Shown here in pieces: positions 781 through 6,497 of a stretch of DNA of 6,549 nucleotides. The position numbers were made by a program, and so were the translations under genes. Source of the stretch: a bacterium. GTDB taxonomy: Bacteria > ARS69. The number at the start of each line of letters is the position of its first letter. The first letter of the stretch is position 1. The notes under the pieces were generated by a model. The model saw nothing but the letters and a program-made list of their open reading frames with translations, was not told where the DNA came from and did no database searches. The DNA lies in NCBI GenBank assembly GCA_025774865.1, contig JALGZO010000520.1:1-6549 (forward strand), written 5' to 3'.

Positions 781-1482
781 TCACCTCGACGACTCGACGA
801 GCCTCACGAGCTCGTCCAGGTCGGCCACCTCGAGATGAGGCATCGCGGCCGCGGGCGGAGTCGCGCCGAACCCCTCCCGTCCCCGTCGCCGGTTGACCCA
901 GATCGTCGTCATCCCCAACTCCCGCGCCGGAACGATGTCGTGGTAGAGGCTCTGGGCCGCGTGCAGCCAGCGCTCGGGAGCGACACCGGTCTTGCGGACG
1001 GCCATCTCGAAGTTGCGCCGCATCGGCTTGTAACTCGCCGCCTCTTCTGCGGTGAGGACCCAGTCGAACGCGACCCCGAGCCGGCGGCGAGTCTCCACGA
1101 ACAAATCGTCGTCGATGTTCGAGATGACACCCAGACGAAAGTGCCGCTGAAGTCGCGGAAGCGCGGCCACGGTGTCGGGAAACGGTGGCCAGTCGGGCAA
1201 GGACTCCACGAGGAGATTCCGATCGTCGCCGCGCGTCCGGAACCCGTACTCCTCGGCGATTCCCTTGATGACCCGCGCGAGGACGTGGCGATACGGTGCC
1301 CAGATCCCTTTCTCTGCCCGCGTCTCGAGCTTCGCGTAAGTCTCCAGAATCACGTGGTCGCTGACCCGGACCTCGTGTCGTGCGAGAAACGGCCGGAGCG
1401 CGCCCAGAATTCCGGCTTCCCAGTCGATGAGCGTTCCGTAGCAATCGAAGCTCATCACCTCGAACTGACGGAAATCGATCAC
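781..1482 (-). CDS. HAD-superfamily hydrolase, haloacid dehalogenase type II group (233 aa)
   Basis: All four HAD motifs are visible. Motif I is FDCYGTL (residues 12-18), with Asp13 as expected nucleophile and Tyr15 in place of the acid/base Asp of phosphatases, as in L-2-haloacid dehalogenases. Motif II is the Ser121-Asn122 of GVISNID, motif III is Lys152 in SYKP, and motif IV is Asp182 in LYHDIVPARELGM. Residues of about 19-100 form the helical cap, placing it in subclass I. Length is typical. Family members hydrolyse C-halogen or phosphate ester bonds through an aspartyl intermediate; the substrate cannot be read from the sequence, and many proteins annotated this way have no proven dehalogenase activity. 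It should be cytoplasmic. The GTG start overlaps the stop of the upstream permease as GTGA, implying translational coupling within the metal-uptake operon. An ATG nine codons in (1455-1453) is an alternative that would leave only three residues before the nucleophile, so GTG is preferred. Its role in metal homeostasis is unknown. Confidence 0.88.
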   Translation of the reverse strand: MIDFRQFEVMSFDCYGTLIDWEAGILGALRPFLARHEVRVSDHVILETYAKLETRAEKGIWAPYRHVLARVIKGIAEEYGFRTRGDDRNLLVESLPDWPPFPDTVAALPRLQRHFRLGVISNIDDDLFVETRRRLGVAFDWVLTAEEAASYKPMRRNFEMAVRKTGVAPERWLHAAQSLYHDIVPARELGMTTIWVNRRRGREGFGATPPAAAMPHLEVADLDELVRLVESSR

Positions 1483-2774
1483 GGGACCGATCCGCCCGAC
1501 CCCTCCTCGCCCGGTGGTGGAATCGGGCGATCGTGGGGATCTCTGGTCGGGAAGCGAGCCGCCTGCTCGACCGCTTCCGTCACGCCCGGCTCGATGTAGT
1601 GCTCGACGCGATCGGCTGGATCGTGGATGTGATCGGGCGGGTAGCCGAGCTCGCCGAGGAAGCTCTCGTAGAGGCGGTGACGGCGCAACAGGTCGAGAGC
1701 TCGTCCCGAGCCCTTCTCCGTCAGGAAGTAGCGATCGCCCCGGTGCGCGAGATAGCCGGTCCTCACGAGCCGCTCCGTGACCGCCGCGACGCGGGTCCCG
1801 CTGCCCGCCCCGATGACCTCCTTCGCCGTGACGCCGTCGGCGAGCACGCGTTCGCCCCGGCGCCCGAGCCACATCAGGATGTCCTCTTCCGCGACGAGCC
1901 TGCGCAGCCGGTGCCTGACCCAGGCCCGAGCGACCATCCCCTGATTCGGGGAGAAGAAGAACGCGAGCGTGAAGAACGCGCCGGACACGGAAGCCATCGC
2001 GGCGGCGATCGACGAGTCGAGAACGCGGGCGACGTGGTAGCCGAGGATCGAGGACGCGACGCCGAGCACGACGGAGATCGCGATCATGCGGCCCAGACGA
2101 TCGGTCAGCAGGTAGGCGGTCGCAGCCGGCACCACGATCATCGCCACGACGAGAATCGCTCCGACGCTCTCGAACGCGCCCACCGCGGTCACCGCGACGA
2201 GTCCCATGAGAAGGTAGTGCATCAATACGACCGGGATTCCGACCGCGGCGGCCATCTCCGCATCGAACGCGCACAACTTGAACTGCTTGAAGAGGAGCCC
2301 GATCGCGAGCGCGTTCATGAGGAGAAGTCCACCGTTGATCCAAACGGCACGAGGTCCGATGTCGCGGCCGCCGAGCATCCACGTGTCGAACGGCGTGTAG
2401 GCGATCTCCCCGTAGAGCACGCAATCGAGGTCGAGGTCGACATGGTGGCCGTACAGCGAAATGAGAACCACACCGACCGCGAAGAGCGACGTGAACGTCA
2501 CGCCGATCGCGGCGTCCCCCTGAATCCCCCTCGTAGAAAGGAACTGGACGAAGAACGCAGTCAGGACTCCGATGGCCACCGCTCCGACGAACATCGGCCA
2601 GGACGCCCGGCTGGCCGTCAGCAGGAACGCGAGCCCGATACCCGGCAGGATCGCGTGGCTGATCGCGTCGCCGAGCATGGCGATCTTCCGAAGCACCAGG
2701 AAGCATCCGAGAAGGGCGCACGATGCGCCGACGAGGGCACCGGTCAGCATGATCATGAGCGAGTCGGTTCCCAC
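1479..2774 (-). CDS. troD: ABC-3 metal permease, TroD-like, with C-terminal DtxR-like domain (431 aa)
   Basis: Inner-membrane channel subunit of the Mn/Fe/Zn importer. Residues 1-276 form the ABC-3 permease part with about nine hydrophobic segments and family hallmarks: MLGDAISHAILPG (33-45), the DLDCVLYGEIAY loop (115-126) typical of TroD-type subunits, and IVVPAATAYLL (213-223). A short basic linker (about 282-293) leads into a DtxR-like extension: a helix with EED (296-298), a winged-helix region (about 312-352), then RRHRLYE (364-370), HIHDPADRVEHYI (382-394) and DPHDRPIP (412-419). Aligned by eye to DtxR, potential metal ligands are kept: His366, Glu370, His384, Glu391 and His392 match DtxR His79, Glu83, His98, Glu105 and His106; Asp388 replaces Cys102 and Asp298 replaces Met10. 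Plain ABC-3 permeases stop near 270-300 residues. The GTG start follows a strong ribosome binding site that overlaps the stop of the preceding permease gene. Family assignment is firm; the role of the extension is inferred. Confidence 0.92.
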   Translation of the reverse strand: MGTDSLMIMLTGALVGASCALLGCFLVLRKIAMLGDAISHAILPGIGLAFLLTASRASWPMFVGAVAIGVLTAFFVQFLSTRGIQGDAAIGVTFTSLFAVGVVLISLYGHHVDLDLDCVLYGEIAYTPFDTWMLGGRDIGPRAVWINGGLLLMNALAIGLLFKQFKLCAFDAEMAAAVGIPVVLMHYLLMGLVAVTAVGAFESVGAILVVAMIVVPAATAYLLTDRLGRMIAISVVLGVASSILGYHVARVLDSSIAAAMASVSGAFFTLAFFFSPNQGMVARAWVRHRLRRLVAEEDILMWLGRRGERVLADGVTAKEVIGAGSGTRVAAVTERLVRTGYLAHRGDRYFLTEKGSGRALDLLRRHRLYESFLGELGYPPDHIHDPADRVEHYIEPGVTEAVEQAARFPTRDPHDRPIPPPGEEGSGGSVP

Positions 2775-2779
2775 GACGT

Positions 2780-2788
2780 CTCTCCTCA
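2780..2788 (-). promoter_or_regulatory. Ribosome binding site of the TroD-like permease, overlapping the upstream stop
   Basis: On the minus strand the end of the TroC-like gene reads TGAGGAGAG: the TGA stop (2788-2786) runs into an AGGAG core (2786-2782), placed 7 bases before the GTG at 2774. Termination of one permease thus occurs on the initiation site of the next, which favours matched production of the two subunits. It also supports GTG at 2774 over the internal ATG codons seven and nine codons in. Confidence 0.75.
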
Positions 2789-4069
2789 GCCGGCGTTCGC
2801 GAGACGGGGGTGGATCTTCGGCTCGAGACCGTGGAGGCGAAGATACCGCTCGAGCTCGTCGACCGTCGTCTCCGGCAGATAGTGCTCGATGTAGTCCGCG
2901 TCTCGGTCGACGTGATCCACCCCGAGCTGGCCTTCGTACATCAGGAACATCTCCCAGAGACGGTGGTTGCGGATCACGCCGTACGCCGCGCCGAGCCCCG
3001 CTTCCGTGAATCGGAACGTGTCGCCGTCCCGCGCGACGAGGCCTTCACCCGCGAGACGTTTGAGGCTTCCCTCCGTCGCCACTCGCTCCTGTCCGCGACG
3101 CGCCGCCGTCTCGGAGACACCGACCGACCGATCCCAGGGGCCCGTCTCCTCCACTGTCTCGTACAGGGATCGCAGCGTGTTCTCTCGCGCCACGCGCGAG
3201 CGCAACGTGAGAAACCGGATGAGCCGCGGCAAGAGGCCACGCCGCGGCGCCAGAAAGAGCGAGACGAGAAAGATCGACGTCGCCGCGAGCACGATGAGCG
3301 GCCCGGTGGGCAGGCGAAGCGCCTGCAAGCTGAGCACCGTTCCCAGGGCTCCCGAGGCCGCCCCGACGGTACCGGCCAGGACGACCATGCTACCGAGCCG
3401 ATCCGTCCAGAGCCGCGCCGACGCGGCGGGAATGATGAGCATCGCCGCCATCAACACGACCCCGACCGCCTGCAACCCGATCACGACGGCGAGCACGACG
3501 AGGGTCATGAGGACCCCGTCGAGAACGCCGGGAGAAAACCCCAGCCCTGACGCGAAGCCCTGGTCGAAGCAGAGGATCTTCAGCTCCTTGAAGAGCGCCG
3601 CGGCCACCAGGCACACGATGACGGCGCAGATCGCCATGACTTTGACGTCTTTCCCCACCATCGAGGCCGCCTGCCCGAAGACGTACTTGTCGAGGCCCGC
3701 CTGGTTGCCCGCTCCGGTGTGCTGGATGTTCGTGAGGAAGAGGATCCCGACCGCGAAGAAGACCGAGAGCACGATCCCCAGCGCGCCGTCTTCCTTGATT
3801 CTCGTGTAGCGCGTGATCGCCTGCACCGCGGCCGCCCCGAGAAGCCCGGCGACCAGCGCCCCGAGTAACAGCACCGAGAGCGACCGCGACTGCGTCAGCA
3901 GAAACGCGACGCACACCCCCGGAAGCGCCGCGTGCGCGAGCGCGTCACCGAGCAAGCTCCGGCGACGCAGGAGAGCGAAGCAACCGAGCACGCCGCTCGA
4001 GACGCCGAGCAACGTGGTGCCCGCGAACACCCATTGCGTGTTCGGATCCCGGATCCAGTCGAAGTCCAT
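2786..4069 (-). CDS. troC: ABC-3 metal permease, TroC-like, with C-terminal DtxR-like domain (427 aa)
   Basis: First of the two inner-membrane channel subunits. Residues 1-274 carry about nine hydrophobic segments and ABC-3 hallmarks: SLLGDALAHAALPGV (38-52), LDKYVFGQAASMVGKDV (126-142), typical of TroC-type subunits, and LIIPAASARLWTDRLG (211-226). After a basic linker (about 277-294) comes a DtxR-like extension with RENTLRSLYE (295-304), a winged-helix region (about 315-356), NHRLWEMF (368-375) and DRDADYIEHY (388-397). By-eye alignment to DtxR keeps His369, Glu373, Glu395 and His396 (DtxR His79, Glu83, Glu105, His106); Asp392 replaces Cys102, Asp388 stands at His98, and Asn297 falls near Met10. 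The PhG-PIP stretch that ends the dimerisation region in DtxR is missing, so this copy is shorter and less canonical than the one on the partner permease. It is the only gene of the operon starting with ATG, 12 bases after the ATPase stop. Transport role is firm; any sensing role is inferred. Confidence 0.92.
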   Translation of the reverse strand: MDFDWIRDPNTQWVFAGTTLLGVSSGVLGCFALLRRRSLLGDALAHAALPGVCVAFLLTQSRSLSVLLLGALVAGLLGAAAVQAITRYTRIKEDGALGIVLSVFFAVGILFLTNIQHTGAGNQAGLDKYVFGQAASMVGKDVKVMAICAVIVCLVAAALFKELKILCFDQGFASGLGFSPGVLDGVLMTLVVLAVVIGLQAVGVVLMAAMLIIPAASARLWTDRLGSMVVLAGTVGAASGALGTVLSLQALRLPTGPLIVLAATSIFLVSLFLAPRRGLLPRLIRFLTLRSRVARENTLRSLYETVEETGPWDRSVGVSETAARRGQERVATEGSLKRLAGEGLVARDGDTFRFTEAGLGAAYGVIRNHRLWEMFLMYEGQLGVDHVDRDADYIEHYLPETTVDELERYLRLHGLEPKIHPRLANAG

Positions 4070-4081: not shown

Positions 4082-4932
<851 letters not shown>

Positions 4933-4936
<4 letters not shown>

Positions 4937-5835
4937 TGCAACGCCTTCACGATCGTCTCGATGTTGTGTCGGACCATCCCGACGTATGTGCCCTCCGGCG
5001 TGCCTTCTTCCCCCATCGCGTCGGAGAAGAGCGAGCCCCCGACGACGACGTCGTGACCTCGCGCCCGACAACCTTCGACGACCGCTTCGATCGAGCGGGG
5101 CGGAACACTCGACTCCACGAAGACCGCCTTGACCCCACGGGACGTGACGAGGTCCACGAGCCGGTGGACGTCCTTGAGACCGTACTCGCTCGCAGTGGAG
5201 ATCCCCTGGAGCCCGACGACCTCGACGTCGTACGCGCGACCGAAGTATCCGAACGCGTCGTGCGCGGTCACGAGGACGCGCCGTTCGACGGGAATCGTGA
5301 CGAGCCGCTCCTGGCAGTACGCATCCAGGGCAGTCAGCTCGGCTCGCAAGGCCTCCGCGTTCCGCTCGAAGACATCCCGCGACGCGGGCTCGATCTGAGC
5401 GAGCCCCTCGGTGGCCGTCGGAATCGTCAGCTTCCAGAGCTCCACGTCGAACCACACGTGGGGATCGGGGTGGCCTTGGAACTCGGGGGGGGTGGCGAGC
5501 AGCGACGGCTCGATGTTCTCGGCCACCGCGATCACCAGCTTCCCCCGCTTCGCGATCTTCTCGAGGATGTCGCCCATCTTTCCTTCGAGGAAGAGTCCGT
5601 TGTAGAAGATGACGTCGGCGCGAGAGAGCCGCCCGATGTCGCCCTGGGACGCCTTGTACAGATGCGGGTCCACGCCCGGACCCATGAGCGTCGTGACGTC
5701 GACGCGTTCCCCCCCGATGTTCTCGATGAGATCGCCGACCATGCCGGTCGTGCACGTGACGTGGATCTTCTCCCCGGCGGCGGCCCCGTTCGGGAGCAAG
5801 GCGACGGCGGCGAGGGCGGCGGCGAGCTTCCTCAC
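4933..5835 (-). CDS. troA: Periplasmic metal-binding protein of the ABC importer, TroA-like (300 aa)
   Basis: Cluster A-I (TroA/ZnuA/MntA) solute-binding protein that delivers Mn, Zn or Fe to the permease. A signal peptide (VRKLAAALAAVALLPNGAAA, 1-20) precedes the mature start near GEKIHV. There is no lipobox cysteine, so it should be free in the periplasm, unlike the lipoprotein versions of monoderms. Landmarks include MGPGVDPHLY (51-60), DPHVWFD (124-130), TAHDAFGYF (190-198), GLQGISTASE (208-217) and GGSLFSDAMG (266-275). The four expected ligands His58, His126, His192 and Asp272 match His68, His133, His199 and Asp279 of Treponema TroA. The His-rich loop of ZnuA zinc proteins is absent, which argues against a dedicated high-affinity zinc importer. 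Similarity to TroA is stronger than to ZnuA by eye. The GTG start overlaps the regulator stop as GTGA, and the signal peptide begins exactly there. Length is usual. Metal choice cannot be settled from sequence. Confidence 0.94.
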
Positions 5836-6497
5836 GAGACGTTCCCGGGAACCGAGACGAACACGTTTCGGGCGAGCTCCTCGCCGATCTTGTGCTCTCG
5901 CCCACCGACCTTGACGAGAAACGGGCCCCCGAACGGATCGCGATCGACCAGCTCGACCGGTACCTCCGGGTAGATCCCGAGAGTCCCGAGATACCGAAGC
6001 ATGGCCGGATCCGAGTCGGAGACGCGCGCGACTCGTCCCTTCTGACCGGGGGCCATCTCGACGAGCGCCGGATGCCGGGTGGGGTCGATCTCCCCGTCCT
6101 TCGTGGGAATGGGATCTCCGTGTGGATCGTGCGTAGGATGCCCCAGCATGGCGTCGATCCTGTCCTCGAACTCCTCGGAGATGACGTGCTCGAGGACTTC
6201 CGCCTCGCCGTCGACCTGATCCCACGTGTAGCCCAGCGCCTCCTTCAGGTAGACCTCAAGCAGCCGGTGATGGCGAATGATCTCGAGCGCCACTTTGGAG
6301 CCGCCGGTCGTCAGCTCGATCCCCTCCGAGCGCTCGTACTGCACGAGCTTGAGCTCCTTGAGTCGCTTCACCATCTTCGTGACGGCCGCGAGCGAGACCT
6401 CCTGCGCCTCCGCCACCGCCGAGGGCCTGACCCGGGGGTTCGACTGCGAGAGCTTGTAGATGGTCTTCAGGTAGTCCTCGACGGCCGATCCGAACAC
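5832..6497 (-). CDS. mntR: DtxR/MntR-family metal-dependent repressor (221 aa)
   Basis: Three parts are visible: an N-terminal winged helix-turn-helix (about 1-70, recognition region near SLAAVTKMVKRLKELKLV), the metal-binding/dimerisation domain (about 71-132, with RHHRLLE, EAEVLEH and DPHGDPIP), and a FeoA/SH3-like C-terminal domain (about 145-216, GQKGRVARVS to KIGEELARNVFV). Likely ligands are Asp8, His77, Glu81, Glu100, Glu103 and His104. Asp at the DtxR Met10 position and Glu at the Cys102 position are what Mn-selective MntR proteins have, while Lys11 replaces Bacillus MntR Glu11 and Asp96 stands at DtxR His98. Metal-loaded protein should bind DNA and repress, most likely this operon, which it leads; in Treponema the tro regulator sits at the other end. 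The GTG start has GGGAGG 5 bases upstream, and the N-terminus lines up with MntR. The name is by family and ligands: iron or zinc response remains possible, and troR would be an equal label. Confidence 0.9.
   Translation of the reverse strand: MFGSAVEDYLKTIYKLSQSNPRVRPSAVAEAQEVSLAAVTKMVKRLKELKLVQYERSEGIELTTGGSKVALEIIRHHRLLEVYLKEALGYTWDQVDGEAEVLEHVISEEFEDRIDAMLGHPTHDPHGDPIPTKDGEIDPTRHPALVEMAPGQKGRVARVSDSDPAMLRYLGTLGIYPEVPVELVDRDPFGGPFLVKVGGREHKIGEELARNVFVSVPGNVS

Follow-up and report, generated by a model that had tools for sequence, protein, structure and literature searches.

In Chlamydia trachomatis, the repressor YtgR is cleaved from the permease YtgC and represses in a metal-dependent manner (PMC5599777, PMC7755916). 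According to the passage of PMC5599777 that cites Thompson et al. 2012, permease-repressor fusions occur in 11 phyla. Regulation of a different kind, trans-inhibition through C-terminal domains, is established for the ATP-binding cassette (ABC) importers MetNI and ModABC (PMC10710835). Here we describe an operon in which both channel subunits of one metal importer carry a DtxR-like C-terminal tail. It lies on the minus strand of contig JALGZO010000520.1 (assembly GCA_025774865.1), which was analysed over its whole 6549 bases (here called the window) and comes from a draft genome of 785 contigs, 92.65% complete with 8.3% contamination. The strand encodes a free MntR/DtxR regulator, a TroA/ZnuA-type binding protein, an ATPase, two ABC-3 permeases (TroC and TroD) and a hydrolase of the haloacid dehalogenase (HAD) type; the importer genes are organised like an mntR-troABCD operon and specify an ABC-3 importer of the Mn/Fe/Zn type. 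The single fusion is already known. The double fusion is apparently undescribed as a pair: no description of it was found in literature searches, with most subscription papers, including Thompson et al. 2012, outside their reach.

An initial annotation of the window proposed that each permease reads without interruption from its channel into a DtxR-like tail. This is borne out: frames, strand and coordinates are correct, there are zero internal stops, and the ABC-3 channel profile PF00950 is covered nearly whole in both proteins. Both tails match the C-terminal repressor family PF02742 over its curated cut-off (Table 1), which identifies them as being of the DtxR/MntR type. The suggested profile comparison thus succeeded for the C-terminal domain and failed for the N-terminal one, since the winged-helix model PF01325 matched neither tail in the Pfam search. 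Searches against the sequences of solved structures align the TroC tail to SloR and DtxR from approximately residue 9 (phmmer). For the TroD tail, the alignments with 5zr4 (a manganese regulator), IdeR and DtxR begin at residue 27 or further on. The predicted winged helix and following helices are present in the AlphaFold2 (AF2) models of both tails, which show a helix-helix-helix-wing-helices order and have MntR/DtxR fold matches that span the winged helix. The TroC tail model superimposes on E. coli MntR (2h09) with Z 15.0 over 126 residues at 2.4 Å, and the TroD tail model on B. subtilis MntR with Z 11.3 over 98 residues at 2.4 Å. These are single-chain models of moderate confidence, built on four sequences and with a mean predicted local distance difference test score (pLDDT) of 64 and 72; the winged-helix parts are mostly at 64-87, with lower values toward the C-terminal end. 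Profile matches and models together indicate that the tails are genuine DtxR/MntR-type winged-helix and metal-binding modules, and are conserved as such.

The HRL-E and A-D-x-x-EH motifs picked out in the initial annotation are DtxR ligand positions, namely H79/E83 and 102/E105/H106 in IdeR/DtxR numbering. At positions 10, 79, 83, 98, 102, 105 and 106, the window TroC tail has N, H, E, D, D, E and H, and the TroD tail D, H, E, H, D, E and H. In an alignment of 50 TroC tails and 44 TroD tails, H79 is kept in 45 and 42, E83 in 47 and 42, and E105 and H106 each in 48 and 44, respectively. Position 98 is D or H in TroC tails and H in TroD tails, and position 102 is mostly D or E. Position 10 is mostly H or N in TroC tails as against D in TroD tails, and an MntR-like DPHG.PIP motif is retained in TroD tails and mostly gone from TroC tails. 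As judged by alignment, the DtxR metal ligands are nearly invariant across both kinds of tail.

The pair of tails is not a chance feature of this locus: it was found again in 31 complete two-permease loci. Chlamydial YtgC(R), which had been put forward as the known precedent for one such fusion, is a real precedent for the single fusion, but not the sole one, and the double fusion is itself widespread. Paired full tails span at least four phyla: that of the window, the small phyla of genomes G368 and G147 (7 and 14 genomes), and Planctomycetota, where they are often found. In a domain-wide sample of 386 genomes, 22 (counted by eye) have one or both permeases with an alignment that reaches the tail end; 8 of these carry both tails, 6 in one operon and 2 with the genes apart. 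For the 245 planctomycete genomes, a reading of the strong matches listed gives approximately 30 with both tails; in Chlamydiota, the strong matches listed show the TroC fusion alone. Thalassoglobus neptunius (Planctomycetota) is the only named relative from a protein-based scan of genome contigs. This recurrence in other phyla rules out that the double fusion is a peculiarity of one contig or an artefact of assembly. Another genome, from the family to which the window belongs, encodes a TroD that is 67% identical to that of the window and bears this tail, in an operon headed by MntR, and the window locus is therefore unlikely to be a contaminant or a misassembly.

The number and extent of the tails is not identical in all the operons. 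The two-permease loci fetched were chosen for having tails, and the class counts refer to those loci. Both tails are full in 31; the TroC tail is full and TroD has a winged helix only in 8; a full tail is present on TroC only in 5 and on TroD only in 2; both permeases have a winged helix only in 12, and TroD alone has one in 7. There are also genomes in which the TroC-tail and TroD-tail genes are far apart, with both tails full (L090/L091, L092/L093 and L151/L152). A further 8 loci have a single permease, several with a PF02742 tail on it, and a homodimer of such a permease would again present two modules; a FeoA domain was confirmed by Pfam in L096. In three single-permease loci (L096:3036-4526, L097:5830-7320 and L098:5652-7607) the sole permease has a long DtxR-like tail, and a separate free MntR opens the operon.

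On a tree of the tails, TroC tails, TroD tails and MntRs separate with 3 changes, against 56.8 in shuffles, many forks being weakly resolved. The separation implies that the pair is old and that neither tail arose by copying of the mntR beside it; an origin as recent copies of the adjacent MntR is ruled out by the same tree. The three groups are largely separate lineages of ancient origin, with the YtgCR-type tails falling among the TroC tails. A test of paired retention on the ATPase tree contained one independent pair only, and hence had no power.

Relatives that have no metal domain retain the winged helix, which matches the corresponding half of full tails with E-values as low as 4.5e-14. 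In these relatives, conserved histidine clusters are present in the TroC and the TroD tails alike. The TroC motif H-x4-8-H-x-H occurs in 9 of 12 tails without a metal domain and in 1 of 50 full tails, and the TroD motif H[LIVM]xxH in 16 of 19 and 0 of 44, respectively, and in 0 of 7 where the TroC partner is full; these sequences share ancestry, so that the counts are not independent events. The clusters stand in place of the metal domain, a swap which suggests that the property retained is the binding of metal at the importer. Loci L103-L119 (for example L110:5557-6693 and 6690-7796) have such winged-helix-only tails, often on both permeases and sometimes on TroD alone, with HxxxxHxH in TroC and HLxxH in TroD. 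On a plasmid of Deinococcus peraridilitoris (L049, 475243-486289), TroD has a winged-helix-only tail, and the operon is flanked by two separate metal-dependent regulators.

The recognition helix is much less conserved in the tails than in free MntR. Within the window clade, tails that share 56-82% identity in the metal domain share 14-36% in this helix, and the MntR recognition helix of these genomes is 71-86% identical. Among paired tails generally, its identity is 0.21-0.35, compared with 0.44-0.52 in free MntR, at a C-domain identity of 0.45-0.75. Mean net charge at the recognition-helix positions is +3.0 and +2.6 in the tails and +1.9 in MntR, and in some tails the helix is partly deleted (L088 TroC, L143 TroD). 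In the Chlamydia-type YtgCR of L102:5810-7153, a WWW motif is present and the recognition-helix region has diverged even between close relatives.

A free DtxR-type protein is present in the window genome and in 9 of 9 paired-tail genomes checked. The window genome has other PF02742 proteins in addition to the free MntR. In the chlamydial genomes checked, the fused tail is the sole PF02742 protein, and the need for the tail as a repressor therefore differs between the two groups. It is worth adding that another contig of the window genome (C632, minus strand, L002:924-1952) encodes a 342-residue protein directly upstream of feoB, which combines a probable membrane helix at the N-terminus with two FeoA domains, a PF02742 domain (7.9e-21) and a winged helix of the DtxR type. 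A membrane-anchored DtxR-like module may therefore belong to a second importer of this genome. Relatives of this protein are likely in genomes G001, G002 and G003.

On the basis of these observations, the reading we favour, to which we would give about an even chance, is that the tails form a pair of metal sensors, anchored to the permeases on the cytoplasmic side, and adjust transport. In the assembled importer, the TroC and TroD modules would sit side by side, bind metal that has just been imported, and pair through the DtxR dimerisation surface; the paired modules would then lower, or otherwise set, the transport rate, as do the C-terminal domains of MetNI and ModBC. There would be a division of labour, in which the free MntR acts on transcription and the tails on importer activity. 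We favour this reading because of the free DtxR proteins in all paired-tail genomes checked, the near-invariant ligands, the poorly conserved recognition helices and the substituted histidine clusters. The recurrence of the pair beside an ordinary free gene switch suggests that the two tails brake the importer in response to intracellular metal. We consider it possible, though rather less probable than the sensor pair as such, that these operons form an old and widespread group of importers, whose specialised and non-interchangeable TroC-type and TroD-type halves, each with its own set of ligands, make a metal-sensing heterodimer that gates the channel; that the winged-helix-only relatives have swapped in a histidine site; and that chlamydial YtgR is a repressor derived from one half.

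Three observations weigh against the sensor pair. Operons with one full tail are many (13 with TroC full and TroD without a metal domain, and 2 with TroD full only), and some importers of the group thus do without the full pair. In 19 of the 31 paired loci there is no full-length DtxR gene within the fetched stretch. Finally, the recognition helix of chlamydial YtgR, a repressor proven to bind DNA, varies to the same degree (0.20-0.29). Variability of this helix therefore does not exclude DNA binding, and the case is not rested on it; the use of a degenerate helix as proof of lost DNA binding is withdrawn, the chlamydial control being equally low.

This last observation bears on the best of the alternatives, that both tails are cut from their channels and form metal-dependent homo- or heterodimers that bind DNA. 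It would follow the cleavage of YtgR from YtgC, and fits the position of the YtgCR-type tails among the TroC tails on the tree, as well as a YtgR recognition helix as variable as those of the paired tails. We regard it as unlikely, since in the genomes checked the chlamydial tail is the sole PF02742 protein whereas paired-tail genomes have free DtxR too, and since in the class without a metal domain the winged helices remain paired in the absence of the DtxR dimerisation/metal domain. In addition, a long helix (residues 280-309 and 279-309) joins the channel to the winged helix in the moderate-confidence models, with no evident loose linker.

Conserved metal ligands, and histidine clusters in the variant without a metal domain, are also in keeping with tails that accept metal where it leaves the channel, or that stabilise the heterodimer, and do not regulate flux. 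Such a hand-off or assembly role seems to us improbable, because the whole DtxR fold is kept, winged helix and dimerisation helices included, which is more than a hand-off site needs. Least probable of all is that the attached tails bind DNA or capture free MntR as heterodimers and so tie transcription to the state of the importer, for which the free MntR in the same operon, the dimerisation domain in common and the retained, mildly basic winged helices could be cited, but which fits poorly with the small constraint on a recognition helix that is partly deleted in some tails.

The features of the window are collected in Table 1. The free MntR consists of a winged helix, a metal/dimerisation domain and a FeoA/SH3 domain, and its best NCBIfam model is MntR NF047407 (1.7e-59, under cut-off). 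The closest named NCBIfam models for the operon are those of manganese and zinc systems, all under their cut-offs.

Table 1 Genes and domains of the window, in the order of the operon. ORF, open reading frame.
Feature	Positions	Strand	Evidence
Free MntR/DtxR regulator, 221 aa, operon gene 1	5832..6497	-	PF01325 2.8e-13, PF02742 8.5e-30, PF04023 6.3e-20
TroA/ZnuA-type periplasmic metal-binding protein (start approximate)	4933..5838	-	PF01297 3.2e-78; NCBIfam AztC, MntC best, under cut-offs
TroB-type ATPase (start approximate)	4082..4915	-	PF00005 4.2e-29; NCBIfam Deinococcus MntA 4.8e-69, under cut-off
TroC, ABC-3 permease with DtxR-like tail, 427 aa	2786..4069	-	ORF, Pfam, AF2 model
TroC channel domain, residues 10-273	3251..4042	-	PF00950 1.4e-69; PsaBC 7kyp Z 34.7
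TroC tail, predicted winged-helix part, residues 290-354	3008..3202	-	DtxR/SloR alignment from tail residue 8-11; helix-helix-helix-wing (model)
TroC tail, predicted metal-binding/dimerisation part, residues 355-411	2837..3007	-	PF02742 1.2e-11; alignment
TroD, ABC-3 permease with DtxR-like tail, 431 aa	1479..2774	-	ORF, Pfam, AF2 model
TroD channel domain, residues 9-274	1953..2750	-	PF00950 1.4e-46; PsaBC 7kyp Z 27.4
TroD tail, predicted winged-helix part, residues 293-352	1719..1898	-	Model; MntR match over 293-399, Z 11.3
TroD tail, predicted metal-binding/dimerisation part, residues 352-419	1518..1721	-	PF02742 3e-20; alignments; DPHDRPIP motif
HAD type II (haloacid dehalogenase-like) hydrolase, downstream of troD	781-1485	-	NCBIfam TIGR01428, over cut-off

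If the tails do act as a sensor pair, DtxR-type domains would, besides being gene switches, sense metal for the control of activity in a major class of Mn/Fe/Zn importers, and the imported metal would feed back directly on its importer. Chlamydial YtgCR, which is puzzling in that its repressor half supposedly has to be cut free, would then be one remnant of a module of paired permeases. Operons of the paired, one-tail and histidine-substituted kinds provide a natural series for probing the idea.

The channels themselves resemble the manganese importer PsaBC of Streptococcus pneumoniae (7kyp, Z 27 and 35), whose solved chains of 258-290 residues are too short for such a tail. The tails share with the free repressors MntR, DtxR, IdeR and SloR the winged helix and metal-binding/dimerisation domain, the fold and the ligand positions, but are fused to a channel, have no FeoA/SH3 domain and have a poorly conserved recognition helix. 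Like TroC of the window, Chlamydia YtgCR is an ABC-3 permease of the TroC type in frame with a DtxR-like tail, with conserved metal ligands and in the same type of operon (ytgABCD). It differs in that one permease is fused and the second has no tail (L102), whereas both are fused in the window; and its tail, reported to be cleaved, is the only PF02742 protein of the genome, whereas the window operon has a free MntR. The likeness to MetNI and ModBC, in which paired cytoplasmic regulatory domains restrain the importer on binding of its imported substrate (PMC10710835), is one that we propose for the window. In those systems the domains are of other folds and are located on the ATPase subunits, while the tails described here are DtxR-like and located on the channel subunits, where they may inhibit transport in a similar way.

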